Source of the DNA: Pseudonocardia autotrophica
GTDB taxonomy: Bacteria > Actinomycetota > Actinomycetes > Mycobacteriales > Pseudonocardiaceae
Assembly (NCBI RefSeq): GCF_003945385.1
Contig: NZ_AP018920.1
Location: 1,426,001 to 1,490,000 of the forward strand
Length of the DNA stretch: 64,000 nucleotides
Direction: 5' to 3'
Part shown: in pieces, positions 17,938 to 39,062 of the stretch
How the letters are laid out: each line of letters begins with the position of its first letter
Numbering within the stretch: position 1 is the first letter of the stretch
Made by a program: the position numbers and the translations under genes
Notes under the pieces: generated by a model
What the model was told of the DNA's origin: nothing
What the model saw: the letters and a program-made list of their open reading frames with translations, nothing else
The model's database searches: none

Positions 17938-18630
17938 TCAGAGCACCTCGCGCACGGCGTTCTCGAAGCCGAGCACGTGCTCCAGGGAGATCCGCTCGGC
18001 GCGCACCGGATCGCCGTCGGCGATGGCGTGCAGCAGCGCGCTGTGCTCGTCGATGTGCCGGGCCACGTGGTTCATCCGGTCGATGAACATGCAGTGGATC
18101 CGGGTCGCGAGGTTCGCGTGCAGCGTGAGGGACGCCTCCAGGTACGGATTGCCCGCGGCACGGTAGACCGACCGGTGCACGCCGACGTCCCACCGCATCA
18201 GCTCGCGACGGTCCATCCGCGCGGTGTCCAGCCGCCGGATCCGTTCGGCGAGGGCGGCCAGCTCCGCCTTCCGTGTGCCCGGTGCGACGGTCGCCGCCCG
18301 CCGCGCCGCCAGCGGCTCCAGCGCGGTGCGGACCTCGCACACGTGCCGCAGGTCCGAGATGTCCACGGCGGTCGCGAAGGTCCCGCGCCGGGGGTAGGAG
18401 ACGACCAGGCGCTCGGCCCGCAGCCGGGTGAGCGCCTCGCGGACCGGGGTGCGGCCCAGGCCGATCCGGGCCGAGACCTCGTCGTCGTCGATCGGCGAGA
18501 GCGGCGGGATGTCCAGCATGATCAGCCGGTCCCGCAGGGCGAGGTAGGCCCGGTCGGCGAGTGAGACCGGGATGTCGAAGTCCGGGGTCGGGGTGTCGGA
18601 GCCCGGTGGGGCGTTGCGCACGGCGGTCAT
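17938..18630 (-). CDS. GntR/FCD-family regulator 1 of the methylglycine island
   Basis: A 230-residue FadR-subfamily regulator. The winged helix carries [17 protein letters not shown] and [13 protein letters not shown], and an all-helical FCD domain follows with the usual metal/ligand histidines ([22 protein letters not shown]). It begins 10 bp after sdaA on the same strand, so it shares that promoter and its operator. It is clearly paralogous to the second GntR protein at 34080-34745. Probable ligands are glycine, serine or a methylated glycine. Repressor or activator role is not determinable here. Confidence 0.88.
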
Positions 18631-18639: not shown

Positions 18640-20013
18640 TCAGCACTCCACGACGTTGAGCGCGAGACCGCCGCGGGAGGTCTCCTTGTACTTGTCCTTC
18701 ATGTCGGCCCCGGTCTGGCGCATCGTGGTGATCGCCTTGTCCAGGGACACGTGGTGCATGCCGTCGCCGTGCCGCGCCATCCGGGCCGCGGTGATCGCCT
18801 TGACCGAGGCCACCGCGTTGCGCTCGATGCACGGGATCTGGACCAGGCCGCCGACCGGGTCGCAGGTGAGGCCGAGATTGTGCTCGATGCCGATCTCGGC
18901 GGCGTTCTCCACCTGCTCCGGGCTGGCACCGATGACCTCGGCGAGCCCGGCCGCCGCCATCGCGCAGGCCGAACCGACCTCACCCTGGCAGCCGACCTCG
19001 GCGCCGGAGATCGAGGCGTTCTCCTTGAACAGCACACCGACCGCGGCGGCGGTGAGCAGGAAGCGGACGACGGCGTCGTCGTCGAACCCGGGCAGGAACC
19101 GCGCGGCGTAGTGCAACACGGCGGGCACGATCCCGGCGGCGCCGTTGGTCGGCGCGGTGACGACCCGGCCGCCGGCCGCGTTCTCCTCGTTCACCGCCAG
19201 CGCGTAGAGCGTCACCCACTCCATGGCGTGCAGCGCGTCGGGCTCGCCGGTCGCCGCCTCCAGATGCCGGCGCAGCGCGGCGGCGCGCCGCCGCACCCGC
19301 AGGCCGCCGGGCAGGGTGCCACCGGTGGTGCTGCCCCGCTCCACGCACTCGCGCATGACCGACCAGATGTGCAGGAGCCCGGCCCGGACCTCGCTCTCGG
19401 TGCGCCACGACAGCTCGTTGGCCAGCATCAGCTGCGAGATCGACAGCCCGTGTGCGCGGGTCAGCGCCAGCAGCCCGTCGCCGGTGGTGAACGGGTAGGC
19501 GACCGGGGTGGTGTCCGGGACCAGCGCGGGCCCACCGACCGCGTCGGAGTCGAGGACGAACCCACCGCCGACCGAGTAGTACTCGCGACGTTCGAGGACC
19601 GCGCCGTGCGCGTCGTAGGCGTGCAGCACCATGCCGTTGGAGTGGAAGTCCAGCCGCCGCCTGCGGTGCAGCACGACGTCGTCGTCGATCGTGAAGGCGA
19701 TCTCGTGGGAGCCGCCGAGCCGGATCCGGCCCTCGCTCCGTACCGCCTCGACCAGCGGGCCTGCCTGCACCGGGTCGACGAGCTGCGGTTCGTGCCCCGC
19801 GAGGCCGAGCACCACGGCGGCGACGCTGCCGTGCCCGTGCCCGGTCGCGCCCAGCGAGCCGAACAGCTCCACCCGTACCGACGCGGTCCGGGGCAGCAGC
19901 GCGGAGTCGTCCAGCCGGGTGACGAACAGGTGGGCGGCCCGCATCGGCCCGACGGTGTGCGAGCTCGACGGCCCGATGCCGACCGTGAACATGTCGAAGA
20001 CGGAGAGGGTCAC
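18640..20013 (-). CDS. sdaA: L-serine ammonia-lyase (iron-sulfur, single chain)
   Basis: A 457-residue fused alpha/beta L-serine dehydratase turning serine into pyruvate and ammonia. The N-terminus [20 protein letters not shown] is diagnostic. Cysteines in [16 protein letters not shown] and [12 protein letters not shown] fit the 4Fe-4S ligands. The start is the GTG at 20013, set by a GGGAG 5 bases upstream and by alignment of the family N-terminus. It is the last step of betaine-to-pyruvate catabolism in this island and leads the sdaA-gntR operon. Fe-S dependence makes it oxygen-sensitive. Confidence 0.95.
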
Positions 20014-20052
20014 GAGGGCTCCCGACGCCGGTTGCCACTGAACATGCACAGA

Positions 20053-20081
20053 ATCGTAGATTGATATATCAATTGTGCCAA
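20053..20081 (-). promoter_or_regulatory. sdaA promoter with operator filling the spacer
   Basis: Reading leftward, -35 TTGGCA (20081-20076) and -10 TACGAT (20058-20053) are separated by exactly 17 bp, and that spacer holds the perfect 14-bp palindrome ATTGATATATCAAT (20060-20073). Regulator bound here would cover the core promoter. It lies 40 bp before the sdaA start. Confidence 0.65.
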
Positions 20082-20097
20082 GAGGGAGTTCCGCGGG

Positions 20098-21543
20098 TCA
20101 GTGCGAGCCGTGGTCCCGGGGCTGCTCCATCGGGATCCCGTCCGGTGACAGCGGCGGCGGCGGAAGGTCCGCGCTGGAGGTCAGCGGCGCCGCGCCGGGC
20201 AGCGGCCGGCCCGCCGTCTCCTTCAGGAACAGCGTGCTGATCACGCCGACGACGCCCGCGCCGACCAGGTAGTAGCCGGGCCAGTCCAGGTTCCCGGTGG
20301 CGGTCACCGCGGTCTCGATCACGGTGGGCGCGGTGCCGGCGAAGAACGAGACGAACAGGTTGAACACCACGCCCAGGCCGCCGTAGCGGACCATGGTCGG
20401 GAACTGCGCGGGCAGCGTGGCGGGGGCGACGGCGGCGAAGCAGACCAGGACCGCCCCCAGCAGGAGCAGGCCGACGGCCTGGCCGAGGGGTCCCCCGCGC
20501 ATCAGCCACACGGCGGGCAGGCCGAGCACGATCAGGGCTAGCGCGCCCGTCATGAGGATCGGCTTGCGGCCGACCCGGTCGCTCAGCCGTCCGACCGGGA
20601 TGATCACGCAGAGCGCGAACAGCATCACCACGACCTGCAGCGCTCCGGCCAGTGCGCCGCTCGCGCCGTCCTCGCCGTGCCGGGGCAGGGTGCTGGTCAG
20701 GTAGGTCGGCATGTAGTTGGTGAGCACGTAGTTGGTGACGTTCCAGGCGACGACCAGGCCGCCGGCCACCAGCGCCGGGCCCCGGTAGCGGGTGGCCAGG
20801 ATCTGCATCGCCCGCCGGTAGGGCATCGCGGCCAGTGCGGGGGAGCGCTCCATCAGCTGGCGGAAGGCGGGCGTGTCCTCCAGGCGCATCCGCAGGTAGA
20901 TGCCGGCGATGCCGAGCGGGAGCGCGAGCATGAAGGGGATCCGCCAGCCCCAGGCGAGCAGGTCGTCCTCGGGCAGTACGGCGACCACCGTGCCGCACAC
21001 GCCGGCCCCCAGCGCGTAGCCGGTGATCGTGCCGAACTCCAGCCAGCTCCCGAAGAAGCCGCGCCGGCGATCCGGCGCGTACTCGGCGACCAGGGTGAGC
21101 GCGCCGGTGTACTCGCCTCCGGCCGAGAAGCCCTGCAGCATCCGGATGAGCAGCACCAGCAGTGGTGCGGCGATGCCGATCGTGTCGTAGCTCGGCACCA
21201 GGCCCAGTGCGACGGTGGCCACCGTCATCAGCAGCACGGTGAAGGAGAGGACCCTGGTCCGGCCGATCCGGTCGCCGAGCGGCCCGAACACGAACCCGCC
21301 CAGCGGGCGCACCAGGAACGCCGCCGCGAAGGTGCCCAGGGTCAGCACCCCGGACCACTCGCCGGCGTCCGGGAACAGCACCCGGTTCAGGACGATCGCG
21401 GCCAGGTAGGAGAAGAGCCCGAAGTCGTACCACTCGGCCACGTTGCCGACCGACGCCGCGGTGGCGGCCCGGCGCACCGTGCGCTCCTCCTCGACGGCGG
21501 GGGTGAGGCCGGTCCGCGGGCGTCTCCGCGGGCTGTTGCTCAT
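20098..21543 (-). CDS. MFS metabolite:H+ symporter, ProP-like betaine/osmolyte carrier
   Basis: A 481-residue, 12-helix transporter of the MHS branch. Typical motifs are GNVAEWYDFGLFSYLA at helix 1, RPLGGFVFGPLGDRIGRTR in loop 2-3, LQGFSAGGEYTGA in helix 4, and GRLSDRVGRKP in loop 8-9. The branch includes ProP (proline/betaine) and organic-acid carriers. Position beside sdaA and a palindrome upstream of its promoter region suggest import of a methylated glycine or related compound. ATG start at 21543. Substrate inferred from context. Confidence 0.85.
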   Translation of the reverse strand: MSNSPRRRPRTGLTPAVEEERTVRRAATAASVGNVAEWYDFGLFSYLAAIVLNRVLFPDAGEWSGVLTLGTFAAAFLVRPLGGFVFGPLGDRIGRTRVLSFTVLLMTVATVALGLVPSYDTIGIAAPLLVLLIRMLQGFSAGGEYTGALTLVAEYAPDRRRGFFGSWLEFGTITGYALGAGVCGTVVAVLPEDDLLAWGWRIPFMLALPLGIAGIYLRMRLEDTPAFRQLMERSPALAAMPYRRAMQILATRYRGPALVAGGLVVAWNVTNYVLTNYMPTYLTSTLPRHGEDGASGALAGALQVVVMLFALCVIIPVGRLSDRVGRKPILMTGALALIVLGLPAVWLMRGGPLGQAVGLLLLGAVLVCFAAVAPATLPAQFPTMVRYGGLGVVFNLFVSFFAGTAPTVIETAVTATGNLDWPGYYLVGAGVVGVISTLFLKETAGRPLPGAAPLTSSADLPPPPLSPDGIPMEQPRDHGSH

Positions 21544-21626
21544 GGGTTCCTCCGGCGCGGATCGTCCGTCGCCGCGCAGTGTCGCAAGCCCGCGATGGTG
21601 TCAGACATAGCCCGTCTGGTCCATCA

Positions 21627-21638
21627 GTGATATATCTT
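21627..21638. promoter_or_regulatory. Imperfect copy of the island operator before the ProP-like gene
   Basis: GTGATATATCTT, with the 8-bp core GATATATC at 21629-21636 identical to the perfect copies. It lies 84 bp before the transporter ATG, in a 412-bp divergent gap whose other gene (Rieske ferredoxin) starts 318 bp away. The rest of the gap, 21640-21955, holds one hairpin and otherwise nothing I can identify. Confidence 0.6.
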
Positions 21639-21843
21639 TCATTCGATTGACCAGCTGTCCGGGCGGTCCGGCGGCGACGGGCGTCCGGTGGGCCGATTCC
21701 GCGACTCCGGTGCGGGACGTTGTGGTCCGCACGGGTACTGCTGCGGGTCGTGGGTGACCCGCCGTGTGCGTGTTGCGCCGGGATTCGGGTGAACGGTCCG
21801 GTGACGGGGTTGCGCCGAGCGTGTGACGAGGGTGTTTCGCCTG

Positions 21844-21867
21844 TTCGGCGCCCGGGTGGGCGCCGAA
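21844..21867. promoter_or_regulatory. Hairpin in the Rieske-ferredoxin leader
   Basis: Perfect 10-bp arms TTCGGCGCCC / GGGCGCCGAA around a GGGT loop, about 90 bp before the ferredoxin ATG. It could be a weak terminator, an attenuator or a protein site; nothing further distinguishes these. Confidence 0.4.
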
Positions 21868-21955
21868 ATTCGTCGTTGACGGCCACCCCTCGCGGCCTCA
21901 TTCTACGGTTGCGCATGACATGGCGAGTTACGCGATACGCAACACAGGAGGAACC

Positions 21956-22303
21956 ATGATCTTCGTGGGCGAGCTGTCCGACATCCCGGTCGGAGAGTCC
22001 GTTCGTGTCCAGGGGACAGTGGCGATCGCCGTGTTCAACGTCGAGGGCGAGCTCTATGCCATCGACGACACGTGTACCCATCAGGACGCCTCCCTGTCCG
22101 ACGGCTGGCTCGAGGGCTGCGCGGTCGAGTGCCCGCTGCACGCGGCCTGCTTCGATCTCCGCACCGGACGGCCGAGCGGTCCGCCCGCCAAGACACCCGT
22201 CCGGACCCATGCCGTGGTGGTCGAGGCCGGGCAGGTCTTCGTCCACGAGTCGGTGACCGTCGACGCGCAGGCGGCCGACCTGGCGGCCCGGGTCGCGCTC
22301 TGA
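21956..22303 (+). CDS. Rieske-type [2Fe-2S] ferredoxin
   Basis: A 115-residue electron carrier with the Rieske ligands C-T-H (residues about 41-43) and C-P-L-H about 18 residues on, as in the ferredoxin components of three-component oxygenases. The start is the ATG at 21956 with AGGAGG just upstream. It overlaps the FAD reductase gene by one base (TGATG), so the pair forms an electron-transfer unit. The most likely client in view is the Rieske oxygenase at 35753-36898, though it is 13 kb away; a remote client is possible. Confidence 0.9.
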   Translation: MIFVGELSDIPVGESVRVQGTVAIAVFNVEGELYAIDDTCTHQDASLSDGWLEGCAVECPLHAACFDLRTGRPSGPPAKTPVRTHAVVVEAGQVFVHESVTVDAQAADLAARVAL

Positions 22304-23472
22304 TGCGAGACGTCACCGTGGTCGGCGCCTCGCTGGCCGGGCTCGCCACCGTGCGGGCCCTGCGGGAGCAGGGCTTCGACGGCCGGATCGTCGTGGTGGG
22401 CGATGAGAAGCACGCCCCGTACGACCGGCCGCCGCTGTCCAAGGACTTCCTCGCCGGTACCGCGTCCGACACCGACGTGGTGCTGGCCGGGCCGGACGAC
22501 GGTGAGCAGGCCGCGCAATGGCGGCTCGGCCGCACCGCGGTCGCGCTCGACGGCCCGGGCCGGGTCGTCACGCTCGACGACGGCGAGCGACTCTCCTCCG
22601 ACGCCGTCGTCCTCGCCACGGGTGCCCGGGCCCGCACCCTCCCGGGCGAACAGCCGCAGGGCGTGCACACGCTGCGCACCCTCGACGACGCCAGGGCGCT
22701 GCGCGCCGATCTCGTCCCGGGGCGCCGGCTGGTGGTGGTCGGGGCCGGCTTCGTCGGCGCCGAGGTCGCCTCCACCGCGGCCGGTCTCGGGCTCGAGGTC
22801 GACATCGTCGAGGCGGCGCCGGTCCCGCTGCAACGGGCGCTCGGACCCGAGATGGGCGTCGCCTGTGGGCGGCTGCACGCCGCGCACGGCGTCCGGCTGC
22901 ATCCGGGCACCGGTGTCGCCGGGATCGTCGGATCGCCGCGGGTGACCGGTGTCCGGACCGACGACGGCCGGGAGTTCCCGGCCGACGTCGTGGTCGTCGG
23001 CATCGGTGCGCTGCCGAACGTGGAGTGGCTGGCCGGCTCCGGACTGGAACTGGACGACGGGGTGGTCACCGACGCCTGCGGGCGGACCGCGCTGCCCGGG
23101 ATCGTCGCCGTCGGCGACTGTGCCGCGTCGCTGCGGGACTACACCGGGAACCGGCTGCGGCTGGAGCACTGGACGAATGCGTTGCAGCAGCCGGCGGTCG
23201 CGGCGGCGGCGCTGCTCGGGACGGCGCACGCGCTGCCGGCCCATCATGCGGTGCCCTACTTCTGGTCCGATCAGTACGGGCACCGGATCCAGTTCGCCGG
23301 GCACCGCGCAGCCGACGGTGCCCTCCGGGTGGAGGAGGGTGATCCGGAGGATCCGGCCGCCGGTCTGCTCGTGCTGTTCCTGGATCCGGGCGGCGAGCCG
23401 GTCGGTGTGCTCGGGATCGACCGGGCCCGCCCGTTCGGCCGGTGGCGGCGCGAGCTGGCGAAGCGCCTGTAG
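22303..23472 (+). CDS. FAD-dependent ferredoxin reductase
   Basis: A 389-residue NAD(P)H:ferredoxin oxidoreductase of the BphA4/rubredoxin-reductase type. The FAD motif is VVGASLAGLATVRAL, the NAD motif VVVGAGFVGAEVAS, and the second FAD motif GIVAVGDCAA; HAPYDRPPLSK and YFWSDQYG are typical of the group. It would feed the Rieske ferredoxin encoded just before it. A paralogue sits at 53499-54695 without a ferredoxin. Confidence 0.92.
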   Translation: MRDVTVVGASLAGLATVRALREQGFDGRIVVVGDEKHAPYDRPPLSKDFLAGTASDTDVVLAGPDDGEQAAQWRLGRTAVALDGPGRVVTLDDGERLSSDAVVLATGARARTLPGEQPQGVHTLRTLDDARALRADLVPGRRLVVVGAGFVGAEVASTAAGLGLEVDIVEAAPVPLQRALGPEMGVACGRLHAAHGVRLHPGTGVAGIVGSPRVTGVRTDDGREFPADVVVVGIGALPNVEWLAGSGLELDDGVVTDACGRTALPGIVAVGDCAASLRDYTGNRLRLEHWTNALQQPAVAAAALLGTAHALPAHHAVPYFWSDQYGHRIQFAGHRAADGALRVEEGDPEDPAAGLLVLFLDPGGEPVGVLGIDRARPFGRWRRELAKRL

Positions 23473-23662
23473 CGCGTGGCGCCGCGCGCGCCGGTGCCGG
23501 ACACGATCCGGTGCGGCGTGCGTGGCGGGCGGCCGCGGCGCGGCGCGGGACCCGTTGCGGGGCCCGCGCCGTTGCGTTGTCCGGGTCCGCTCGGCGACCG
23601 CTCGCAGTCGCCTCCGATGGGCCCTTGACCATGCGGAATGCGACGTGCCAGTCTGACCACAG

Positions 23663-23693
23663 TTGATATATCAATCCGCTCGGTAAGATATCT
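23663..23693 (+). promoter_or_regulatory. glyA operator-promoter region
   Basis: A perfect palindrome TTGATATATCAA (23663-23674) is followed by TAAGATATCT, whose AGATATCT (23686-23693) is a second small palindrome. TTGATA could serve as -35 and TAAGAT (23684-23689) as -10 with a short 15-bp spacer, so the operator would overlap the promoter. GGAGGTG and the ATG follow directly. The 190 bp before it (23473-23662) hold only GC-rich sequence and a TTGACC at about 23626. Confidence 0.6.
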
Positions 23694-23703
23694 GGAGGTG
23701 TCC

Positions 23704-25008
23704 ATGACTCTGTTCGCCGTGGACCGGAGCGGGGCCGGGACGGACGCGCCCGCCGGCCCGCTGGACCGGTCGCTGGCCGAGGTCGATCCGGACGTGCATG
23801 CCGCGGTCACCGCCGAACTCGGCCGCCAGCGCCGGACCCTGGAGATGATCGCCAGCGAGAACTTCGCGCCGCGCGCGGTGCTGGAGGCCCAGGGCTCGGT
23901 GCTGACCAACAAGTACGCCGAGGGCTACCCGGGCCGGCGCTACTACGGTGGCTGCGAGCACGTCGACGTGATCGAGCAGCTGGCGATCGACCGGCTCACC
24001 GCCCTGTTCGGAGCGGAGTTCGCCAACGTCCAGCCGCACTCCGGGGCGCAGGCCAACGCCGCGGCGATGGCCGCCCTGCTGGAGCCGGGCGACACCATCC
24101 TGGGCCTGGATCTCGCCCACGGGGGGCACCTGACGCACGGCATGCGGCTGAACTTCTCCGGCCGGCTCTACGACGTCGCGGCCTATCACGTCCGCGCCGA
24201 CGACCACCGGATCGACATGGCGGAGGTCGAGCGGCTGGCCCGTGAGCGCCGCCCCAAGATGATCATCGCGGGCTGGTCGGCCTACCCGCGGCACCTCGAC
24301 TTCGCGCAGTTCCGGCGGATCGCCGACGAGGTCGGCGCCTACCTGATGGTCGACATGGCGCACTTCGCCGGGCTGGTCGCGGCCGGTCTGCACCCGTCAC
24401 CGGTGCCCTACGCCGACGTCGTCACCAGCACCACGCACAAGACCCTCGGCGGCCCGCGCGGCGGTGTGATCATGGCCAGGGCCGGGTTGGCCAAGAAGCT
24501 CAACTCCACGGTGTTCCCCGGCCAGCAGGGCGGGCCGCTGGAGCACGTCATCGCGGCGAAGGCGGTGGCGTTCAAGCTCGCCGCCGAGCCCGCGTTCGCC
24601 GAGCGGGGCCGGCGCACGCTGGAGGGCGCACAGCTGATCGCGTCCCGGCTGCTCGGCGAGCCCGGTGTCGGCGTCGTCTCCGGGGGCACCGACGTGCACC
24701 TGGTCCTGGTCGACCTGCGCGACTCCGAGCTCGACGGCAAGCAGGCCGAGGACCGGCTGCACCGGGTCGGGATCACGGTCAACCGCAACGCCGTCCCGTT
24801 CGACCCGCGCCCGCCGATGGTCAGCTCCGGGGTCCGGATCGGTACCCCGGCGCTGGCGGCCCGCGGGTTCGGCGCCGAGGCGTTCGCCGAGGTCGCCGAC
24901 GTCATCGCCCGCGCGCTGCGCCCGGCCGCGGCGCAGACCGAGCTCGACGAGCTCGCCGCCCGGGTCACCGCCCTCGCCGACCGTCACCCCCTCTACCCGG
25001 AGCTCTGA
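23704..25008 (+). CDS. glyA: Serine hydroxymethyltransferase
   Basis: A 434-residue PLP enzyme interconverting glycine plus methylene-THF and serine. Signature parts are [22 protein letters not shown] and the PLP-lysine motif [13 protein letters not shown]. The start is the ATG at 23704, with GGAGG close upstream. It heads a same-strand run glyA-soxB-soxD-soxA-soxG-DMG oxidase-fchA-folD with gaps mostly under 65 bp. Here it would use methylene-THF made by the sarcosine and dimethylglycine enzymes to fix glycine as serine for SdaA. It is likely a catabolic copy. Confidence 0.95.
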
Positions 25009-25013
25009 GGCAC

Positions 25014-26294
25014 GTGAGCAGCACGACCGCGACCGCCGCCGATCCGCCCGGCGCGGATCTGCCCGAGCACCCCGACTTCCTCTGGCACAACCCGGAGCCG
25101 AAGCGCTCCTACGACGTGGTGATCATCGGTGGCGGCGGGCACGGGCTCGCCACCGCGCACTACCTCGTCCGCAACCACGGGATCACGAACGTGGCGGTGC
25201 TGGAGAAGGGCTGGCTGGCCGGCGGGAACATGGCCCGCAACACCACCCTGATCCGGTCCAACTACCTGTGGGACGCCTCGGCCGCGATCTACGAGCACGC
25301 GCTGAAGCTCTGGGAGGGGCTGGAGGACGACCTCGGCTACCCGATCCTGTTCTCCCAGCGTGGCGTGCTGAACCTCGCGCACACCGAGCAGGACGTCCGG
25401 GATTCGGTGCGCCGGGTCGAGGCGAACAAGCTCAACGGGATCGACGCCGAGTACCTCGGCCCGGACGACGTCGCGAAGATCTGCCCGATCCTGAACGTCT
25501 CCGACGACATCCGCTATCCGGTGCTCGGCGCCACCTACCAGCCCCGCGCCGGCATCGCCAAGCACGACTACGTCGCCTGGGGATTCGCCCGCCGCGCCGA
25601 CGCCGGCGGGGTCGATCTGATCCAGGACTGCGAGGTGCTGGACTTCGTCACCGAGGGGTCCGTCGAGGACGGCGCTGCGGAGGGTACAGCGCGGGTCACC
25701 GGGATCCGGACCACCCGTGGCGACATCGCCTGCGGTCAGGTCGCGCTCTGCGCGGCCGGGCACACCTCGACCCTGCTCGACCGGCTCGGCGTGCGCACGC
25801 CGCTGCAGTCGCATCCGCTGCAGGCGCTGGTGTCCGAGCTGCTGGAGCCGGTGCACCCGACGATCGTGATGTCCAACGCGGTGCACGTGTACGTCTCCCA
25901 GGCGCACAAGGGCGAGCTCGTGATGGGCGCCGGGGTCGACTCCTACAACGGCTACGGCCAGCGCGGCGCCTTCCACATCATCGAGCGGCAGATGGCCGCC
26001 GCGGTCGAGCTGTTCCCGATCTTCGCCAGGGCGCACCTGCTGCGCAGCTGGGCCGGGATCGTCGACGTCACCCCGGACGCGTCGCCGATCGTCGGGCGCA
26101 CGCCGTACGCGAACGTGCTGGTCAACTCCGGTTGGGGGACCGGCGGGTTCAAGGTCACCCCCGGGCTGGGCTGGTGTCTCGCGCACACGATCGCGACCGG
26201 TGAGCTGCACCCGCTGATCGAGCCCTTCGCCCTCGACCGGTTCGTCACCGGCGCGCTCGTCGACGAGCACGGCGCCGCCGGCGTCGCGCACTAG
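25014..26294 (+). CDS. soxB: Sarcosine oxidase, beta subunit
   Basis: A 426-residue flavoprotein subunit of heterotetrameric sarcosine oxidase, which turns sarcosine, O2 and THF into glycine, H2O2 and methylene-THF. The dinucleotide motif is [31 protein letters not shown] holds the histidine expected to bind FMN covalently. GTG start 5 bp after glyA, with GAGG directly before it. Confidence 0.94.
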
Positions 26295-26343
26295 GCCCGG
26301 AGCAGCAGTACCGATCCCCGCCACCCGCTACCAGGAGCGCACC

Positions 26344-26634
26344 GTGCAACTCATCACCTGTCCGTGGTGCGGGCCCCGCGAGGAGCTCGAATTCCACTAC
26401 GGCGGCCAGGCCGACGTCCGGTATCCGGACAACCCGCAGGAGCTGACCGACGAGCAGTGGGGCCACTTCGTGTTCTTCCGGGACAACCCGAAGGGCCCGT
26501 TCGCCGAGCGCTGGGTGCACAGCGCCGGCTGCCGCCGCTGGTTCATCGCGATCCGCGACACCCGCACCCACCAGTTCCTCTCCGTGCACCGGATCGGTGA
26601 GGACCAGCCGCAGATCCCGGAGGCCACCCGATGA
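26344..26634 (+). CDS. soxD: Sarcosine oxidase, delta subunit
   Basis: A 96-residue small subunit. C-P-W-C at residues 6-9 and later histidine and cysteine (W-V-H-S-A-G-C) fit the zinc site of SoxD, and RRWFIAIRDTRTH is typical of the family. GTG start at 26344. It overlaps soxA by 4 bp (ATGA). Confidence 0.93.
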   Translation: MQLITCPWCGPREELEFHYGGQADVRYPDNPQELTDEQWGHFVFFRDNPKGPFAERWVHSAGCRRWFIAIRDTRTHQFLSVHRIGEDQPQIPEATR

Positions 26635-29382
26635 GCCGGGTCCAGGGGTACGGGCGGGTCGACCGCACCCGGACCGTCAGCTTCACCTTCGACGGCACCG
26701 GCTACACCGGTCACCCGGGGGACACCCTCGCGTCGGCGCTGCTGGCCAACGGTGTCCGGACGGTCGGCAGCAGCATCCGGCTCGGCCGCCCGCGCGGGAT
26801 CGGCGGGGCCTGGACCGAGGACCCGACCGGCCTCGTGCAGATCGAGGAGCCGTTCCCGGAGCCGATGCTGCAGGCCTCGACGGTCGAGCTGCATGACGGC
26901 CTGGTCGCCACCGGCGTGCACGGCCGGGGCCGGCTGGCCGCCGTCGCCGACACCGCGCGGTACGACCACCGGTACGCGCACTGCGACACCCTGGTGATCG
27001 GCGCCGGCCCGGCCGGGCTGCTCGCCGCCCGCACCGCGGCGCGGCGCGGCGACCGGGTCGTGCTGGTCGACGACCGGCCCGAGGCGGGCGGCAGCCTGAT
27101 CCCGACCGAGCGGATCGACGGCCGCGCCGCGTTGCGCTTCGTCGCCGGCGTGGTCGCCGAGCTGGCCGAGCACCCGGAGGTGACGCACCTGCAGCGCACC
27201 ACCGCCTTCGGTCACTACGACGACGGTTTCGTGCTCGCCCTGCAGCGGCGCCCCGGCAACCCGGCGGGCCGGTCCCGGCAGCGGGTGCACCGGATCCGGG
27301 CCGGCCGGGTCGTCGTCGCGGCCGGCGCGATCGAGCGCCCGGTGGTGTTCGCCGACAACGACCGGCCGGGCATCATGCCCGCCGCCGCGGCCCGCGACCA
27401 CCTGCACCGCTACGGCGTCCTGGCCGGCCGTGAGGTCGTCGTGTTCACCACCGACGACGCCGCCTACGACGCGGCCGCCGATCTGGCCGTCGCCGGTGCC
27501 GCGGTCACCCTGCTCGACGCCCGCGACACCGTCCCCGCCGAGCGGGCCGCGGCCTGCCGGGAGGCCGGGGTGACGGTCCGGCCGGCGACCCTGGTGGTGG
27601 GCACCGACGCGGCCGCCGACGGCACCGTGTCCGCCGCACACACCGACACCGCCGGGACCGTTCCGTGCGATCTGCTGCTGGTCTCCGGCGGCTGGACGCC
27701 GGCCGCGCACCTGTTCAGCCACGTCCGCGGTGAGCTGCGCTACGACCCCGCGCTGGGGGCGTTCCGGCCGGCGGCCGCGCTCGCCGGCACCGAGGTCGTC
27801 GGCGCCGCGAACGGCACGCTCGACCTGGCCGGATGCCTGGCCGAGGGGGCGGGCGGCGACGCGCCGAACGTCCCCCCGGAGCCGGCCCGCACGCCCACCG
27901 CGGTGCGGTGGCGCACGCCGGGGGAGTCGTCCCGGCAGTTCGTCGACATCGCCAGGGACGCGACCGTTGCCGACATCGAGCGGGCCGTCGGCGCCGGGAT
28001 GCGGTCGGTCGAGCACGTGAAGCGCTACACCACCATCGGCACCGCGCACGACCAGGGCCGGACCTCCGGGATGATCGCCGCGGGGATCACCGCCGAGCTG
28101 CTCGGCCGCGCGGCCGGGGAGCTGGGCACCACGACGTTCCGGCCGCCCTTCGTCCCGGTCGCCTTCGCCGCGCTGGCCGGGAGGGAGCGCGGCGCGCTGT
28201 TCGATCCGGTCCGCACCACCGCGGTGCACCCGTGGCACGTCGCCCGCGGTGCGGTCTTCGAGGACGTCGGTCAGTGGAAGCGCGCGCGCCACTACCCGCA
28301 CCCCGGCGAGGACATGGACACCGCGGTGCTGCGCGAGTGCGCGGCGGTGCGCCGCGACGTCGGCATCATGGACGGCTCCACCCTCGGCAAGATCGACGTG
28401 CAGGGGCCGGACGCCGGGGAGTTCCTGGACCGCGTCTACACGAACCTGATGAGCACGCTGAAGGTCGGCCGGGTGCGCTACGGCGTCATGTGCGGCAACG
28501 ACGGCATGGTCGTCGACGACGGCACCGTGCTGCGGATCGACGAGCAGCGCTACCTGCTCACCACCACCACCGGGGGTGCCGCGGCGGTGCTGGAGACCCT
28601 GGAGGACTGGCTGCAGACCGAGTGGCCGCAGCTGCGGGTGCACCTCGCCTCGGTCACCGAGCACTGGTCGGTGTTCCCGGTCGTCGGCCCGCGCTCGCGG
28701 GAGCTGATCGGGGAGGTCTTCGCCGATCTCGACGTCTCCTCCGACGCGTTCGGGTTCATGACCTGGCAGGACACCACGCTCGACGGTGTGCCGGTCCGGC
28801 TCGCCCGGATCTCGTTCTCCGGGGAGCTCGCCTACGAGGTCAACGTCGACTCCCGTTACGGCCTCGCCGTGTGGGAGCGGCTGATCGCCGCCGGCGCGAG
28901 CCGCGGGCTCGCCCCGTACGGCACCGAGACGATGCACGTGCTGCGCGCCGAGAAGGGCTACCCGATCATCGGCCAGGACACCGACGGCACCGTGTCCCCG
29001 CACGATCTCGGGATGAGCTGGGTGGTGTCGAAGAAGAAGCAGGACTTCATCGGGAAGCGGTCCTTCACCCGGGCCGAGAACCTCGATCCGCTGCGCAAGC
29101 AGCTGGTCGGCCTGCTCCCGACCGACGCGTCCACCCGGCTGCCGGAGGGCTCGCAGATCGTCGAGTTCGCCGCGGACGGCGCCCTGCCGCCGCCCCCGGT
29201 CCCGATGCTCGGGCACGTCACCTCCAGCTACCACAGCGCCGAGCTGGCCCGGCCGTTCGCGCTGGCACTGGTGCAGGGCGGCCGGGACCGGATCGGCGAC
29301 GTCGTGGGCGTCCCGTACCGGGGCGCGCTGGTCCCCGTCGAGATCACCGGATCCGTGCTCGTCGACCCGGAAGGAACCCGTC

Positions 29383-29393
<11 letters not shown>
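26631..29393 (+). CDS. soxA: Sarcosine oxidase, alpha subunit
   Basis: A 920-residue subunit with three parts: an N-terminal 2Fe-2S-like fold (FTFDGTGYTGHPGDTLASAL) lacking the iron-sulfur cysteines, as in known SoxA; a middle NAD/FAD oxidoreductase domain with VIGAGPAGLLAARTA near residue 123; and a C-terminal aminomethyltransferase-like domain (about 550-920) that binds folate and catches the methylene group. Start overlaps soxD; its end overlaps soxG by 11 bp. Confidence 0.95.
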
Positions 29394-32539
<3,146 letters not shown>

Positions 32540-32574
32540 ACCAGCCCATCATCTCGCCGTACGAAAGGACGTTC

Positions 32575-33195
32575 ATGCGTTCGGACACCGTGGACCGGTT
32601 CCTCTGGGACCTCGCCGCCCGCGTACCCGCACCGGGTGGCGGCGCGACAGCGGGCCTGCACCTGGCCCAGGCGGCCGCCCTGCTCGGCATGGTGGCGCGC
32701 TACAGCGACGGCGACCGCTACACCGAGCACGCCGAGACGATCTGCTCGGTGCGCAACCGCGCCGACGAGCTCCGCGTCGTCGCGATCGGCCTGGCCGAGG
32801 ACGACACCCGCGCCTTCGCCGCGGTCGGCGCCGCCTACGCGCTTCCCCGGGAGGGCACACAGGCGAAGGCGGAGCGGTCGGCGGCGATCGCGCACGCGCT
32901 GGTGGAGGCCGGCCGGGTGCCGGCCCGGGTGGTCCGGGCGGCGGCGGAGGTCGTCGAGCTCGCGGGCCGGCTGGGGCCGGTCGGCAATCCGAACGTGCTC
33001 ACCGACGTGGGCGCGGCCGCCGAGGCGGCCAGGGCCGCGGCGGGCACCGCCCGGCTCAACGTCGAGGTCAATCTCGCCGGGATCACCGATCCGCTGGCCC
33101 GGCTGGAGCTGGCCGAGGCGCTGGAGGGGGTCGACGACCTCCTCGCGCGGGCCGACGAGATCACCGCGGACGTCCGGGGACGGATCGGCCGATGA
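32575..33195 (+). CDS. Methenyl-THF cyclohydrolase, FchA / cyclodeaminase family
   Basis: A 206-residue helical protein of the formiminotransferase-cyclodeaminase fold. VPAPGGGATAGLHLAQAAALLGMVA is the family hallmark, and NPNVLTDVGAAAEAARAA is also conserved. Stand-alone versions (FchA) open methenyl-THF to 10-formyl-THF. It starts 35 bp after the dimethylglycine oxidase and overlaps the FolD-like gene by 4 bp, so it should carry the cyclohydrolase step beside a FolD that lacks a key lysine. Confidence 0.87.
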   Translation: MRSDTVDRFLWDLAARVPAPGGGATAGLHLAQAAALLGMVARYSDGDRYTEHAETICSVRNRADELRVVAIGLAEDDTRAFAAVGAAYALPREGTQAKAERSAAIAHALVEAGRVPARVVRAAAEVVELAGRLGPVGNPNVLTDVGAAAEAARAAAGTARLNVEVNLAGITDPLARLELAEALEGVDDLLARADEITADVRGRIGR

Positions 33196-34064
33196 GCACC
33201 GCAGACACCGCAGATACCGGGTCCGCGGTCGTCCTCGACGGCACCGGGCTCGCCCGGTCGATCCGCGAGCGGGTCGCCGCCGGGGCGGCGGAGCTGATCG
33301 GGGTGGGTGTCGCACCCCGGCTGGCCGTGGTCGTGGCCACCGACGACGAGGGCGCCGGCTGGTACGTCCGGTCGTTGTCCGGCGCCGCCCGGCGGGTCGG
33401 CATCGCCTGCGACGTCGTCGAGCTCGGCGCGGACGCCGATCCCGAGACGATCCGGCACACCCTGCTCCGGCTCAGCGGCGACGACACGGTGCACGGGATC
33501 ATCCTGCAGACCCCGTTGCCCGACGGCGTGCGGGTGGAGGACCTCGCCGCCGACATCGCCGCGGAGAAGGACGTCGACGGGGCCAATCCGCTCTCGGCCG
33601 GGCGGCTCGCCGCGGGCCTGCCCGCCTACCCGCCGGCGACCGCCGCCGCGGTACTGGACCTGCTCGACCACCACGGCATCGCGCTGGCCGGTCGCAGTGC
33701 GGTCGTCGTCGGGCGGTCGCTGGTGGTCGGGAAACCGACCGCGCAGCTGCTGCTGCAGCGCGACGCGACGGTCTCGATCTGCCACCGGCACACCAAGGAC
33801 CTCGCGCAGCACACCCGTGAGGCCGACGTGCTCGTGGTGGCGGTGGGCCGGATCGGGCTGGTGCGCGCCGAGCACGTCGCACCCGGCGCGATCGTCGTCG
33901 ACGTCGGGACCAACACGGCACCCGACGGCAGCCTGGCCGGGGACGTCGACGGCGGCGTCGCGGCCGTGGCGGGCGGCCTCACCCCGGTGCCGGGCGGGGT
34001 CGGCCCGGTGACCACGGCGCTGCTGCTCGAACACACCGTGCGCTCGGCGCGGTCGCACGGCTGA
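33192..34064 (+). CDS. folD: FolD-like methylene-THF dehydrogenase, cyclohydrolase lysine missing
   Basis: A 290-residue FolD homologue. The NAD(P)-binding block GRSLVVGKPTAQLLLQRDATV, the folate-site glutamine in LQTPLP (Q106), EKDVDG (127-130) and TPVPGGVGPVTTALLLEHT are all in place. The conserved Y-V-x-x-K motif instead reads Y-V-R-S-L (58-62). In studied FolD enzymes that lysine is central to cyclohydrolase activity, so this protein may be a dehydrogenase only. The overlapping FchA-type gene would supply the missing step. It is probably a second, catabolic copy. Confidence 0.85.
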   Translation: MSTADTADTGSAVVLDGTGLARSIRERVAAGAAELIGVGVAPRLAVVVATDDEGAGWYVRSLSGAARRVGIACDVVELGADADPETIRHTLLRLSGDDTVHGIILQTPLPDGVRVEDLAADIAAEKDVDGANPLSAGRLAAGLPAYPPATAAAVLDLLDHHGIALAGRSAVVVGRSLVVGKPTAQLLLQRDATVSICHRHTKDLAQHTREADVLVVAVGRIGLVRAEHVAPGAIVVDVGTNTAPDGSLAGDVDGGVAAVAGGLTPVPGGVGPVTTALLLEHTVRSARSHG

Positions 34065-34079
34065 GCGGTGCGACCGCGC

Positions 34080-34745
34080 TCAGACGACCGCGCGGATCGC
34101 CTTCTCGAAGCCGATCACGTGGTCCCGGGCCCGCTGCTCCGCCTCGTCGGCCCGCCGGTCGCCGATGGCACGCAGCAGCCCCGAGTGCTCGCCGACGTGC
34201 TGGTCGAAGTGCGACATCCGGTCCAGGAACAGGCAGAAGATCCTGGTCGCCAGGTTGTCGTAGCGGATCAGGGTGTCCTCGAGGTGCGGGTTCGCGGCGG
34301 CGGTGTAGATCGCGCGGTGCACGTGCAGATCCCAGCGCATCAGCGCGTCCCGGTCGAGCGTGCGGACGTCGATCTCGTCGATCGTGTCGGCCAGCGCGAC
34401 GAGCTCGCTCAGTGCCGCGGTGCCGGAGGACTCGGCGGCCCGGCGGGCGGCGAGCGGCTCGAGCTGGACCCGGATCTCGGAGATGTAGGCGAGATCGGTG
34501 ATGTCGACGGCGGTCGCGAACGTCCCGCGGCGCGGGTAGGAGATCACCAGCCGGTCGATCTCGAGCCGCTTGAGCGCCTCCCGGACGGGCGTGCGGCCGA
34601 CCTCGAGGGACCGGGCGAGTGCGACGTCGTCGATCGCGGTCATCGGCGGGATGTCGAGCATGATCAGCCGGTCCCGGATCGCGGTGTAGGCCTTGTCGGC
34701 CAGGGAGGCGTACTCCGGCTCACTGGTATCGGGCAGAGCGGTCAC
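34080..34745 (-). CDS. GntR/FCD-family regulator 2 of the methylglycine island
   Basis: A 221-residue FadR-type regulator paralogous to the one at 17938-18630: they share [17 protein letters not shown], GRTPVREAL and [14 protein letters not shown] blocks, and similar FCD domains (here HRAIYTAAANPHLE, HSGLLRAI). The GTG at 34745 is the likely start; the longer frame begins inside the divergent control region. A TTGATATATCAG operator lies 67 bp upstream, before purU, so it may regulate itself and purU. Near-identical recognition helices suggest both proteins read the same palindrome. Confidence 0.88.
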   Translation of the reverse strand: MTALPDTSEPEYASLADKAYTAIRDRLIMLDIPPMTAIDDVALARSLEVGRTPVREALKRLEIDRLVISYPRRGTFATAVDITDLAYISEIRVQLEPLAARRAAESSGTAALSELVALADTIDEIDVRTLDRDALMRWDLHVHRAIYTAAANPHLEDTLIRYDNLATRIFCLFLDRMSHFDQHVGEHSGLLRAIGDRRADEAEQRARDHVIGFEKAIRAVV

Positions 34746-34811
34746 TACCGCATGGTAACCCGGCACACCGACGTAACAGTGGAGCGTCAACCCGCCGGGT
34801 TGTCGCGGTGA

Positions 34812-34823
34812 TTGATATATCAG
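34812..34823. promoter_or_regulatory. Island operator before purU
   Basis: TTGATATATCAG matches the palindrome TTGATATATCAA at 11 of 12 positions, with the core TGATATATCA symmetric. It lies 18 bp before the purU GTG and between divergent gntR2 and purU. Possible -35 TTGTCG at 34800-34805; the -10 is unclear. Confidence 0.65.
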
Positions 34824-34840
34824 TAGTCGAGGAGACTCCC

Positions 34841-35689
34841 GTGAGCCGTTCTTTCGTCCTGATCCTGAGCTGCCCCAACCGCACCGGCATCGTGCGCGCG
34901 GTCAGCGCCTTCCTCTTCGAGCACGGCTGTGACATCGGGGAGTACCAGCAGTTCGACGACCCGGTCCGGGGCAGGCTGTACCTGCGCACCCGGGTCGTCG
35001 CGCCGGACGGCGCCGACCTCGGGACGCTGTCGCGCGAGTTCGAGGCGGTCGCCACCGAGTTCGGCATGGACTTCGGCTTCTCCGACGGATCCCCGGCCCG
35101 GATCCTGGTGATGGTGTCCCGGCTCGGCCACTGCCTCAACGACCTGATCTTCCGCTGGCGGGCCGGGAGTCTGGGTGCCGACATCGTCGGGGTGGTCTCC
35201 AACCACACCGATCTGCGCCCGATGGCCGACGCCGCCGGCCTGCCGTTCGTGCACATCCCGGTCACCCCGGAGACGAAGCCCGACGCCGAGGCGCAGCTGT
35301 TGCGCACGGTCGACGAGCTCGACGCCGAGCTCGTCGTGCTCGCCCGCTACATGCAGGTGCTCTCGGACGAGACCTGCAAGGCACTGCACGGCCGGGCGAT
35401 CAACATCCACCACTCGTTCCTGCCCGGCTTCAAGGGGGCCCGGCCCTACCACCAGGCGTACGACCGTGGGGTCAAGCTGGTCGGGGCGACCGCGCACTAC
35501 GTCACCCCGGACCTGGACGAGGGGCCGATCATCGAGCAGGAGGTGATCCGGATCGACCACACCTACGTGCCGTCGTCGCTGCAGACGGTCGGCCGGGACG
35601 CCGAGGCGCTGGCGCTGTCGCGTGCGGTGCGCTGGCACTGCGAGCGCCGGGTGCTGCTGTCCGGCGGGAGCACCGTCGTCTTCCGCTGA
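34841..35689 (+). CDS. purU: Formyltetrahydrofolate deformylase
   Basis: A 282-residue enzyme that hydrolyses 10-formyl-THF to formate and THF. An N-terminal ACT domain (LILSCPNRTGIVRAVSAFL) precedes a formyltransferase-like domain with NIHHSFLPGFKGARPYHQAY and ATAHYVTPDLDEGPIIEQ. The start is the GTG at 34841 (GGAG upstream). In this island it would recycle THF when methylene-THF from methyl groups exceeds biosynthetic need. It stands alone under its own operator. Confidence 0.95.
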   Translation: MSRSFVLILSCPNRTGIVRAVSAFLFEHGCDIGEYQQFDDPVRGRLYLRTRVVAPDGADLGTLSREFEAVATEFGMDFGFSDGSPARILVMVSRLGHCLNDLIFRWRAGSLGADIVGVVSNHTDLRPMADAAGLPFVHIPVTPETKPDAEAQLLRTVDELDAELVVLARYMQVLSDETCKALHGRAINIHHSFLPGFKGARPYHQAYDRGVKLVGATAHYVTPDLDEGPIIEQEVIRIDHTYVPSSLQTVGRDAEALALSRAVRWHCERRVLLSGGSTVVFR

Positions 35690-35693
35690 ACGG

Positions 35694-35743
35694 GGTCGAG
35701 CGTTGCAGGACGGTGAAGGGGAAGGCCGTCCTGCAACGCTCGA
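35694..35743. terminator. Bidirectional terminator, 19-bp perfect stem
   Basis: Arms at 35694-35712 and 35725-35743 pair perfectly around a 12-base loop, between the convergent purU and Rieske oxygenase genes. Confidence 0.85.
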
Positions 35744-35752
35744 CGGTTCGGG

Positions 35753-36898
35753 TCAGCCGATGTGGCCGCGGACCCAGTCGTGGAACTCGCCGATGTGGTG
35801 CTCGCTGGGGACCAGGACGCCGCCCTTCTGATACGACCAGGAGTCCATGCCGAGTTGGCAGCGTTCGCAGGCGTCGAAGTCCTGTTGGTTGACGCGGTGG
35901 AACAGTTCGACGGAGTGGTCGATGTCGGTGCCGGAGTCGATGACCTGGGGTAGGTAGAGCCAGTCGCAGTGGACGAGGGTGCGGTCGGGTGCGAGGGGGA
36001 ACATCCGGTGGAACACGACGTGGTCGGGGACGAGGTTGATGAAGACCTGGGGTCGGACGGTGATGGCGTAGTAGCGGCGGTCCTGGTCGTGGGTGACGCC
36101 GGGGATGCGGGGCAGGCCTGCTGAGCCGTCGATGGTGAATCCTTCGACGTCGTTGCCGAAGGCGGCGCCGTGGCCGACGAAGTACTGGGCGGCGAGGCCG
36201 TCGGCGAACTCGGGGAGTACTTCGGTGAGTTCGGGGTGGATCGTGGCGCAGTGGTAGCACTCCATGAAGTTCTCGACGATCTGTTTCCAGTTCGCGGCGA
36301 CGTCGTAGGTGATGCGGCGGCCGAGGCGGAGGTTGGCGATGTCGTAGCCGACGATGGCGTCGGGTGATCCGAGTCGGGTGGTGACGTCGGCGATGACGGT
36401 GTCGTCGAACGAGGGTGGGGTTTCGGCGAGGCAGAGCCAGATGTAGCCGAGCCATTCGCGGGTGTGTACCCGGTGCAGGCTGTAGTCGGTTTTGTCGATG
36501 TCGGGCATCGCGTTGAGGTTGGGGGCGGCGATGAGTGAGCCGTCGAGGTCGTAGGTCCAGGCGTGGTAGGGGCATTGGAAGGAGCGTCGGACCTCGCCCT
36601 TGTCCTGGGTGCAGAGTCGGGCGCCGCGGTGTCGGCAGATGTTGAGGTGGGCGGCGATCCGGCCGTCGCGGCGGCGGGTGATGATGACGCTTTCCCGTCC
36701 GATCTGGACGGTTTCGTACTGGCCGGGTCGTTCGAGGTCGGTGGCGAGTACGGCGCAGAACCAGCCGGTGTGGAAGATCCGGTCCTGCTCGGCGCGGAAG
36801 ATCTGCGGATCGGTGTAGTAATGGCCGGCCAGGGTCTCGCGCAGGCTCTCCGGCAGACCCTGGTCCTCGGCAGGGGTGGAGAGCTCACCGGTTGTCAT
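35753..36898 (-). CDS. Rieske non-haem iron oxygenase, probable glycine betaine / quaternary amine demethylase
   Basis: A 381-residue oxygenase subunit. Rieske ligands are C88-x-H90 and C109-x-x-H112. Mononuclear iron ligands are H216, H221 and probably D342. The acid before Y-H that links the two centres is Glu (E213 in NFMECYHC) rather than the Asp of aromatic dioxygenases; to my knowledge quaternary-amine oxygenases such as CntA also have Glu here. It is divergent from the BCCT gene, with betaine catabolism downstream in the island, which supports glycine betaine demethylation to dimethylglycine plus formaldehyde. Carnitine or stachydrine are alternatives. Codon use in its middle differs from neighbours. 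Confidence 0.82.
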   Translation of the reverse strand: MTTGELSTPAEDQGLPESLRETLAGHYYTDPQIFRAEQDRIFHTGWFCAVLATDLERPGQYETVQIGRESVIITRRRDGRIAAHLNICRHRGARLCTQDKGEVRRSFQCPYHAWTYDLDGSLIAAPNLNAMPDIDKTDYSLHRVHTREWLGYIWLCLAETPPSFDDTVIADVTTRLGSPDAIVGYDIANLRLGRRITYDVAANWKQIVENFMECYHCATIHPELTEVLPEFADGLAAQYFVGHGAAFGNDVEGFTIDGSAGLPRIPGVTHDQDRRYYAITVRPQVFINLVPDHVVFHRMFPLAPDRTLVHCDWLYLPQVIDSGTDIDHSVELFHRVNQQDFDACERCQLGMDSWSYQKGGVLVPSEHHIGEFHDWVRGHIG

Positions 36899-37029
36899 AG
36901 CACTGCTCCTCGGGAAGGCGATGGGGGTGCTGCCCCGCGCGGTCGTCGTCCGCTGCCGGGGACCTGGTCACGGAAGGCTTCCGGTGGCTTCGAAGGGGCA
37001 CCGTGTGTTCGGCCAGCCTTGACCGAACT

Positions 37030-37063
37030 GGTGACCCACAATACGGTCCCTAGATATATTAGT
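37030..37063. promoter_or_regulatory. Rieske/BCCT divergent control region with degenerate operator
   Basis: CTAGATATATTAG at 37051-37063 matches the island palindrome at about 9 of 12 positions and keeps the GATATAT core. Upstream, TTGACC (about 37020-37025), 17 bp, then TACGGT (about 37043) form a plausible promoter reading toward the BCCT gene, placing the operator just after the -10. The remaining gap 36899-37121 shows nothing else. Confidence 0.5.
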
Positions 37064-38903: not shown

Positions 38904-38924
38904 CCGGATCCCGGGTGCCCCGCG

Positions 38925-39062
38925 GGGGCGCCCGGGGATCGGGACGCCGGGGATCGGGGCGCGGGGGACTGGATGCCGGTGACTGGGGCGCCGGGGGTCG
39001 GGATGCCGGGGACTGGGATCAGGCCGGCTCGGGATCGGGCCCGGCCCGGGATCAGGCCGGCT
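38925..39062. repeat. GC-rich degenerate direct repeats between BCCT and pncA genes
   Basis: Repeated variants of GGGGATCGGGACGCCGG and GGGATCAGGCCGGCTCGGG fill nearly the whole 148-bp gap between convergent genes. No coding potential. Confidence 0.65.

Follow-up and report, generated by a model that had tools for sequence, protein, structure and literature searches.

Introduction

Atu1419 of Agrobacterium fabrum, a VanR-type regulator of the GntR family with a C-terminal FCD domain (PDB 6z74, 6za3), is one of the closest described counterparts of the system considered here; its proposed effector is 5,10-methylene-tetrahydrofolate (5,10-methylene-THF), and a G3-to-A change in its operator abolishes binding (PMC7797058). 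Our subject is a short AT-rich palindrome that recurs within one gene cluster in a 64,000-nt stretch (hereafter the window) of the 7.54-Mb genome of Pseudonocardia autotrophica, and that, judged from its sequence and setting, is very probably the binding site of a metabolic switch. With good confidence, we predict that the palindrome is the operator of two self-regulating FCD (VanR-type) GntR proteins encoded in the cluster, GntR1 and GntR2, which would control the catabolism of N-methylated glycines. These proteins resemble Atu1419 as FCD GntR regulators with a six-helix C-terminal domain (modelled for GntR2) and a metal site of three His plus Asn or Asp (the metal being predicted here from the residues), and the systems also share a short AT-rich palindrome, a pathway that feeds folate one-carbon units and, on our predictions, self-regulation and sites at the -10 and -35 elements (PMC7797058). 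Unlike them, Atu1419, to which a fold search gives 24-25% identity, serves hydroxycinnamate degradation, recognizes an operator (ATGTATACAT) that keeps a GT...AC signature, and carries Ser44 where the present proteins have Gly50.

Other described systems share single features with the cluster. In Saccharopolyspora erythraea, the GntR-family gene SACE_4500 lies close to a sarcosine oxidase operon and is frameshifted in an erythromycin over-producing strain, the authors suggesting a link by proximity (PMC3359211). Its likeness to gntR1 and gntR2, compared by description only, is that of a GntR gene near a sarcosine oxidase operon, and the passages of that report on the gene describe no operator, regulon or binding (PMC3359211). 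The solved FCD structures nearest by sequence or fold, namely PmiR of Pseudomonas aeruginosa (7xp0, 7xp1), McbR/YncC (4p9f) and the Brucella protein 7u5q, show 19-28% identity. The FadR-subfamily regulons compiled by Suvorova et al. 2015 likewise involve FCD GntR proteins, palindromic AT-rich operators, autoregulation and divergent genes, but their consensus is TKGT/ACMA as against TGAT/ATCA in the strict sites of our cluster (PMC4494728); the main text of that paper mentions neither sarcosine nor betaine nor serine.

Betaine or sarcosine catabolism is controlled by SouR in Pseudomonas, the sigma54-dependent SoxR in Bacillus thuringiensis and the LysR-type SoxR in Arthrobacter TE1826 (PMC4941409), and by GbdR together with SouR in Pseudomonas (PMC8864220). 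As presented in these sources, the four have the control of betaine or sarcosine catabolism in common with our cluster and belong to regulator classes other than GntR. GbdR and SouR are of the AraC type, and to our knowledge none of the four is an FCD GntR protein. In Arthrobacter and Corynebacterium, the glyA-soxBDAG-purU and dmg gene sets have been well studied as enzymes (PMC4941409, PMC3534580); the section of the Arthrobacter Rue61a report that describes glyA-soxBDAG-sdaA-purU does so without the word GntR (PMC3534580), and PMC12314914 concerns syringate. An open full-text literature search returned no operator or regulon for these gene sets beyond the remark on SACE_4500. The claim, made when the window was first read, that no GntR regulon of this kind had been described holds for the open full text searched, with the amendment that the proximity of a GntR gene to a sarcosine oxidase operon had already been noted (PMC3359211).

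The palindrome and its sites

The palindrome and its variants stand at five places in the window:

20061-20072, operator-like palindrome TTGATATATCAA, perfect, 47 bp before the start codon of sdaA-gntR1
21627-21638, weaker site GTGATATATCTT, 9/12 (three mismatches), 83 bp before proP and 317 bp before the Rieske ferredoxin gene
23663-23674, operator-like palindrome TTGATATATCAA, perfect, 29 bp before glyA-soxBDAG
34812-34823, operator-like palindrome TTGATATATCAG, one mismatch, between the divergent gntR2 and purU, 17 bp before purU
37051-37062, weaker site TAGATATATTAG, 9/12 (three mismatches), between the divergent Rieske oxygenase and BCCT genes, 59 bp before BCCT

Allowing up to two mismatches, TTGATATATCAA finds three matches in the window against a shuffle mean of 0.01, and all five sites are intergenic, given the start codons assigned in this analysis. 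A sequence-only reading of the window had named these five positions and the genes that they precede, and both were recovered on re-location. That reading had also ascribed an 8-bp AT core to the sites; such a run occurs solely at 37054-37061, which is the only AT run of at least 7 in the window, and the other four sites have an AT-only core of 6 bp (ATATAT). Its statement that no such sequence occurs elsewhere in the window proved accurate, in that GATATATC (four places) and ATATAT (five places) are confined to the five sites. For the two weaker sites, counterparts were sought in relatives' loci: the proP site has counterparts in the loci of five close relatives (L057-L060, L063), and the BCCT site in five loci (L119-L122, L078), with none at up to two mismatches found in L069, L075, L134 and L135. 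The site at 37051 is the least certain of the five because it overlaps the predicted -10 box of the BCCT gene.

Distribution of the motif and the regulator

Within the P. autotrophica genome, TTGATATATCAA at up to one mismatch occurs at three places, all of them in the window, and TGRTATAYCA returns the same three. The shorter GATATATC occurs at five places genome-wide where a crude dinucleotide model of the window predicts 3.4; the total is thus ordinary, and what stands out is that four of the five lie in the cluster, within 14.8 kb. The fifth (G000:C1:2453102-2453109; L008 1501-1508) precedes a PadR-family gene (PF03551) and is embedded in a different, longer, CGCGATATATCGCGAT-like palindrome. 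The motif is accordingly not frequent away from these genes, the strict matches being the clustered ones. The genome also holds a second soxB-like gene (48% identity; G000:C1:985238-986419), at which no strict operator site is found.

Across the genus, regulator presence was scored as a homologue at E 1e-40 or better, which was found in 34 of 62 genomes; there were 45 GntR matches in all, and 35 neighbourhoods (L057-L091) were fetched, two matches of G221 being left out. The pattern YTGATATATCAR occurs at 35 places in the 62 genomes, as against four for its reversed control, and for 34 of these 35 a homologue of the two GntR genes is no more than 7 kb away. The remaining place, in G308 and on another contig, lies ahead of an sdaA gene (77% identity) and then purU (74%); a Rieske oxygenase gene (49%) is nearby. 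At the level of genomes, the pattern is present in 19 of the 34 with a homologue and in none of the 28 without one (Fisher, 5e-7). In the neighbourhoods themselves, a match to YTGRTATAYCAR at up to one mismatch is held somewhere by 34 of the 35, and 38 of 41 exact sites have an assigned target, although the count for dmg as a target is unreliable here, its underlying query being out of frame (15 stops). Two of the three unassigned sites precede a gene for S-(hydroxymethyl)mycothiol dehydrogenase, and the third is located 43 bp ahead of a soxB match.

The regulator accompanies the sarcosine oxidase genes: of the 32 genomes whose soxB homologue reaches at least 74% identity, 30 carry it, as against 4 of 30 others; eight genomes with only 46-49% matches were left out of this comparison, and the partial matches of G314 and G328 were kept. 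The four regulator-bearing genomes that lack a close soxB match are G203, G221, G299 and G310, and the two soxB genomes that lack the regulator are G328, which has only a contig-edge fragment, and G285. The two mycothiol dehydrogenase sites belong to G082 and G252, where they lie next to gntR1 (L057 1595-1606 and L058 1006-1017); the G082 enzyme matches TIGR03451 at 668.9 bits against a cutoff of 512.9, and the G252 copy is 87% identical to it. The demethylation of methylated glycines releases formaldehyde, for which reason a mycothiol dehydrogenase makes sense as a target, and formaldehyde removal would appear to have joined the predicted regulon in these two relatives.

In a wider sampling, GTDB species genomes were searched with the regulator alignment; the best 80 of 576 relatives were taken in and gave 79 regulator loci (1.49 Mb), some of which come from the same strains as the genus genomes (identical tree rows), so that the two sets overlap. 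These loci belong to Pseudonocardia (8), Saccharopolyspora, Amycolatopsis, Prauserella, Actinomycetospora, Streptomyces, Nocardiopsis, Geodermatophilus, Blastococcus, Modestobacter, mycobacteria, Gordonia, Sinomonas, Arthrobacter and others. The motif at up to one mismatch lies within 300 bp upstream of the regulator, counted from match starts rather than proven start codons, in 66 of the 79 loci, as compared with 2 of 1580 dinucleotide shuffles of these upstream stretches. Targets were assigned up to 400 bp away, counting from start positions that were projected from tblastn hits; on this basis each of the 61 exact YTGRTATAYCAR sites, distributed over 54 of the 79 loci, stands upstream of a pathway gene, the targets being gntR, glyA, sdaA, dmg and soxB, with purU, proP and folD once each. 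At one mismatch the sites number 140, of which three fall inside a known gene and seven are unassigned, and 78 of the 79 loci have a targeted site. Since these loci were chosen by the regulator, they show where the motif stands given the regulator, and the genus scan with YTGATATATCAR is the unbiased test. From the opposite direction, six of seven genomes of other genera that were picked for the exact motif carry the regulator; an exact-motif scan of the family matched 11 of 297 genomes and is too strict to be useful alone.

Taken together, the genome, genus and 79-locus scans support the interpretation first offered by the sequence-only reading, in which the sites define a regulon and the GntR pair are their candidate readers; the scan of own and related genomes that it had proposed ties the motif to GntR homologues.

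Mode of control and alternative readings

Two of the sites coincide with promoter-like sequences. At sdaA, the site falls within the 17-bp spacer of a predicted promoter on the minus strand (TTGGCA at 20081-20076, TACGAT at 20058-20053), the only promoter-like match in 19900-23800, and the BCCT site overlaps a predicted -10 element (TATATT, 37055-37060); the scans gave one match each against a mean of 0.1 in shuffles, and both are consensus matches only. In combination with the gaps between operators and start codons, these predicted overlaps favour repression. The operator also lies upstream of the regulator genes, directly so for gntR2 and, for gntR1, as the second gene after sdaA, and on such sequence features this self-regulated FCD/VanR-type GntR of methylglycine and folate one-carbon catabolism probably acts as a repressor. 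The sites stand ahead of genes for transporters and demethylating enzymes, of purU as the folate branch gene, and of glyA and sdaA, which form the glycine-to-serine-to-pyruvate exit. A GntR dimer bound to CTGATATATCAG, over or just beside the promoter, would repress these genes, and a pathway metabolite bound at the conserved FCD metal site would release them, possibly with a division of labour between the two paralogues. The most likely effector would be a methylated glycine (sarcosine or dimethylglycine) or 5,10-methylene-THF. By analogy, the latter is a serious candidate beside sarcosine, dimethylglycine, glycine and serine, because it is the effector proposed for Atu1419 and because the predicted regulon both makes and spends it.

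The same regulator and operator might alternatively serve activation, or both activation and repression, which we consider improbable. The direction of control is not readable from the sequence, and the distances from site to start codon at proP (83 bp) and BCCT (59 bp) would suit an activator, as would the lack of any promoter-like match for glyA, proP, purU and gntR2. Blocking is, on the other hand, suggested by the sdaA site in its predicted -35/-10 spacer, the BCCT site on its predicted -10 element, and the glyA and purU sites only 29 and 17 bp before the start codon, and the VanR-type Atu1419 is a repressor whose sites lie on -10 boxes or between -10 and -35 (PMC7797058).

A less probable reading still, and one that we regard as very unlikely, is that a different, unlinked regulator reads the palindrome and that the GntR genes merely travel with the cluster. 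In its favour, G209 and G308 have the regulator and the exact site on different contigs. Yet among the 79 GTDB loci, which were chosen by the regulator, the regulator gene itself is the most frequent target (38 gntR2 and one gntR1 assignments for the 61 exact sites), and the 28 genus genomes that lack a homologue are also without the site. The same holds for the one full sox-dmg cluster without a regulator, that of G285, where soxBAG and dmg are present: no regulator match was found genome-wide at 1e-40 or in the 20 kb around the cluster at 1e-5, and YTGATATATCAR is absent from the genome, the best match in the 20 kb having two mismatches and lying inside dmg. In this one case, then, the motif follows the regulator and not the enzymes. 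The G285 cluster (L254, G285:C220) is adjoined by an IclR-family gene and an MttB-family methyltransferase gene.

It is scarcely credible that the AT-rich words represent -10 elements of promoters or matches due to chance, for although 37051-37062 does overlap the predicted -10 TATATT and an exact motif in G016, which has no regulator, stands beside open reading frames of low third-position GC content and looks like chance, both halves of the palindrome are conserved in many genera at differing distances from genes, the predicted sdaA -10 is a separate sequence, and the reversed control is far rarer than the motif (4 against 35 places). Chance origin is rejected by the window shuffles and by the genome, genus and GTDB-locus scans alike.

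Several findings nonetheless weigh against a GntR operator as we predict it. The two 9/12 sites (21627, 37051) are not supported by motif score alone, and four of the eight relatives' loci with a BCCT match are without a BCCT site. In P. autotrophica, YTGRTATAYCAR at one mismatch occurs at 16 places against 17 for its reversed control, which means that only strict matches are informative. Fifteen of the 34 regulator-bearing genus genomes lack a strict YTGATATATCAR, and 13 of the 79 loci have only matches of two to four mismatches upstream of the regulator. The promoter scans are silent for glyA, proP, purU and gntR2, as mentioned, and the GT...AC signature usual in GntR operators (TKGT/ACMA) is absent, the strict sites reading TGAT..ATCA. 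A wider regulon in trans was considered for the P. autotrophica genome and rejected, the strict motif being absent elsewhere and the 13 extra one-mismatch places being treated as noise.

The GntR1 and GntR2 proteins

GntR1 and GntR2 match the GntR winged helix-turn-helix (HTH) model (PF00392) at 46.8 and 45.3 bits (cutoff 27) and the C-terminal FCD model (PF07729) at 72.4 and 63.1 bits (cutoff 24.3). They are 57% identical to each other, the next best of 25 matches in the genome being 30% identical, and they share the start of the recognition helix (GRTPVREAL) and the wing (YPRRGTFAT). An AlphaFold model of GntR2 was built from an 11-row regulator alignment (A1), two rows of which (L093, L095) came from neighbourhoods first picked by motif; its mean predicted local distance difference test score is 88.7. 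Six C-terminal helices are modelled (82-106, 109-124, 132-149, 153-176, 180-195, 199-220), and by this predicted fold GntR2 fits the VanR group of FCD proteins. With this model, Foldseek returned 7u5q, PmiR and Atu1419 as the best solved matches by E-value and McbR by TM-score.

Residues D139, H143, H187, H209 and R92 are invariant across the 11 aligned proteins, which fits a metal-held carboxylate effector. The first four were matched by order and spacing to the Atu1419 metal ligands Asn137, His141, His192 and His214; R92 aligns with Atu1419 Arg86, a citrate ligand, and is compatible with any carboxylate ligand. A protein search found 4385 relatives, and among the 120 listed the names shown give no function beyond 'GntR family'.

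In a tree of 119 regulators, the gntR1 group (nine rows, this genus only) is separate from gntR2, indicating that the pair is not a recent copy, and mycobacteria have tandem GntR pairs of their own. Three GntR homologues of this family occur in one cluster of Kocuria rosea (L187 3030-10642), which suggests repeated duplication of the sensor. Sibling GntR genes, 43-48% identical, were seen at L091 9705-11280 and L088 9515-10200, with a CTCATATACCAG-like sequence upstream in the former and CTGATATATCAG in the latter. The L091 sibling (43% identical) falls on a different tree branch and is divergent from a gene for a PhyH-type oxygenase, near a phosphonate-binding protein gene; a similar oxygenase sequence was seen by eye in L088. 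A sister regulon is possible for these siblings.

Operator sequence and DNA recognition

The profile of the 66 regulator-upstream sites reads [AG][CT]TG[AG]TATATCA[GA], with T2 and T7 at 100% and T5 and A11 at 98% (12-mer numbering), and it leans toward YTGRTATAYCAR, by likeness to which the sites were picked. Where FadR-subfamily operators have the G of GT, these sites have G in 27% and A in 73% (left half), and for the partner C they have C in 11% and T in 89% (right half), the selecting consensus allowing either base in both cases. Aligned with the Atu1419 10-mer ATGTATACAT, the operator becomes TGATATATCA, with mostly A in place of the essential G3; the sites of the cluster and the profile of the 66 do not correspond to the Atu1419 operator.

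The regulator itself also differs from Atu1419. Gly (Gly50) occupies the position of Atu1419 Ser44 in all of the 133 family matches, out of 136, in which the motif is readable; two of the other three show GRT by eye and the third is without the region. Ser stands at this position in the four other FCD proteins of the P. autotrophica genome that were readable (six fetched, 23 present) and in the five solved relatives shown in the alignment, and Atu1419 Arg45 is kept in this family as Arg51. In a hand alignment, D, E, V and others replace the Arg at HTH position 28 that shows a preference for G in the FadR subfamily (PMC4494728). When the helix-2 residue of the regulator was compared by eye with the A/G position of the operator, no pattern of co-variation emerged.

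We hypothesize that the new DNA specificity results from the Ser-to-Gly difference. A broader proposal, which we offer tentatively and hold to be rather unlikely as a whole, is that of an actinobacterial GntR family with shifted specificity, in which loss of the Ser that begins the recognition helix (Gly50 here) would allow the Arg, which is kept, to contact a G lying one position more distal, so that TGGT..ACCA would become TGAT..ATCA. Such a family would sense 5,10-methylene-THF or a methylated glycine and set betaine demethylation, formaldehyde removal and one-carbon disposal together, with repeated duplication splitting control between two effectors.

Genes of the cluster

The genes of the cluster, in order of position, are:

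17938..18630, minus strand, gntR1, FCD-type GntR regulator by domain matches, proposed reader
18640..20013, minus strand, sdaA, L-serine ammonia-lyase
20098..21543, minus strand, ProP-like MFS transporter
21956..22303, plus strand, Rieske-type ferredoxin
22303..23472, plus strand, ferredoxin reductase
23704..25008, plus strand, glyA, serine hydroxymethyltransferase
25014..26294, plus strand, soxB, sarcosine oxidase beta
26344..26634, plus strand, soxD, sarcosine oxidase delta
26631..29393, plus strand, soxA, sarcosine oxidase alpha
29383..29991, plus strand, soxG, sarcosine oxidase gamma
30053..32539, plus strand, DAO + GCV_T flavoprotein, dimethylglycine oxidase/dehydrogenase-like (named from its domains)
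32575..33195, plus strand, FTCD_C protein, methenyl-THF cyclohydrolase-like (FchA model, 137.9 of 275 bits, below cutoff)
33192..34064, plus strand, folD (Pfam domains above cutoff, NCBIfam models below theirs)
34080..34745, minus strand, gntR2, FCD-type GntR regulator, 57% identical to gntR1, proposed reader
34841..35689, plus strand, purU, formyltetrahydrofolate deformylase
35753..36898, minus strand, Rieske oxygenase (best NCBIfam model, glycine betaine monooxygenase oxygenase subunit, 225 of 670 bits, far below cutoff)
37122..38903, plus strand, BCCT transporter (general BCCT model above cutoff; betaine equivalog 535 of 650 bits)

In this cluster folD has no operator-like site of its own. 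A perfect 19-bp inverted repeat (35695-35713/35726-35744) between the convergent purU and Rieske oxygenase genes is probably a terminator, and a repetitive GC-rich stretch of gatcgggacgccggggatcgggg-like units (38915-39060) directly follows the BCCT gene.

Significance

The natural Ser-to-Gly difference, accompanied by an altered operator, offers a clean case in which to test how GntR proteins recognize DNA. One operator-regulator pair for these genes in many soil actinobacteria would provide a handle on how the catabolism of osmolytes is switched on, and likewise on the disposal of formaldehyde and one-carbon units.

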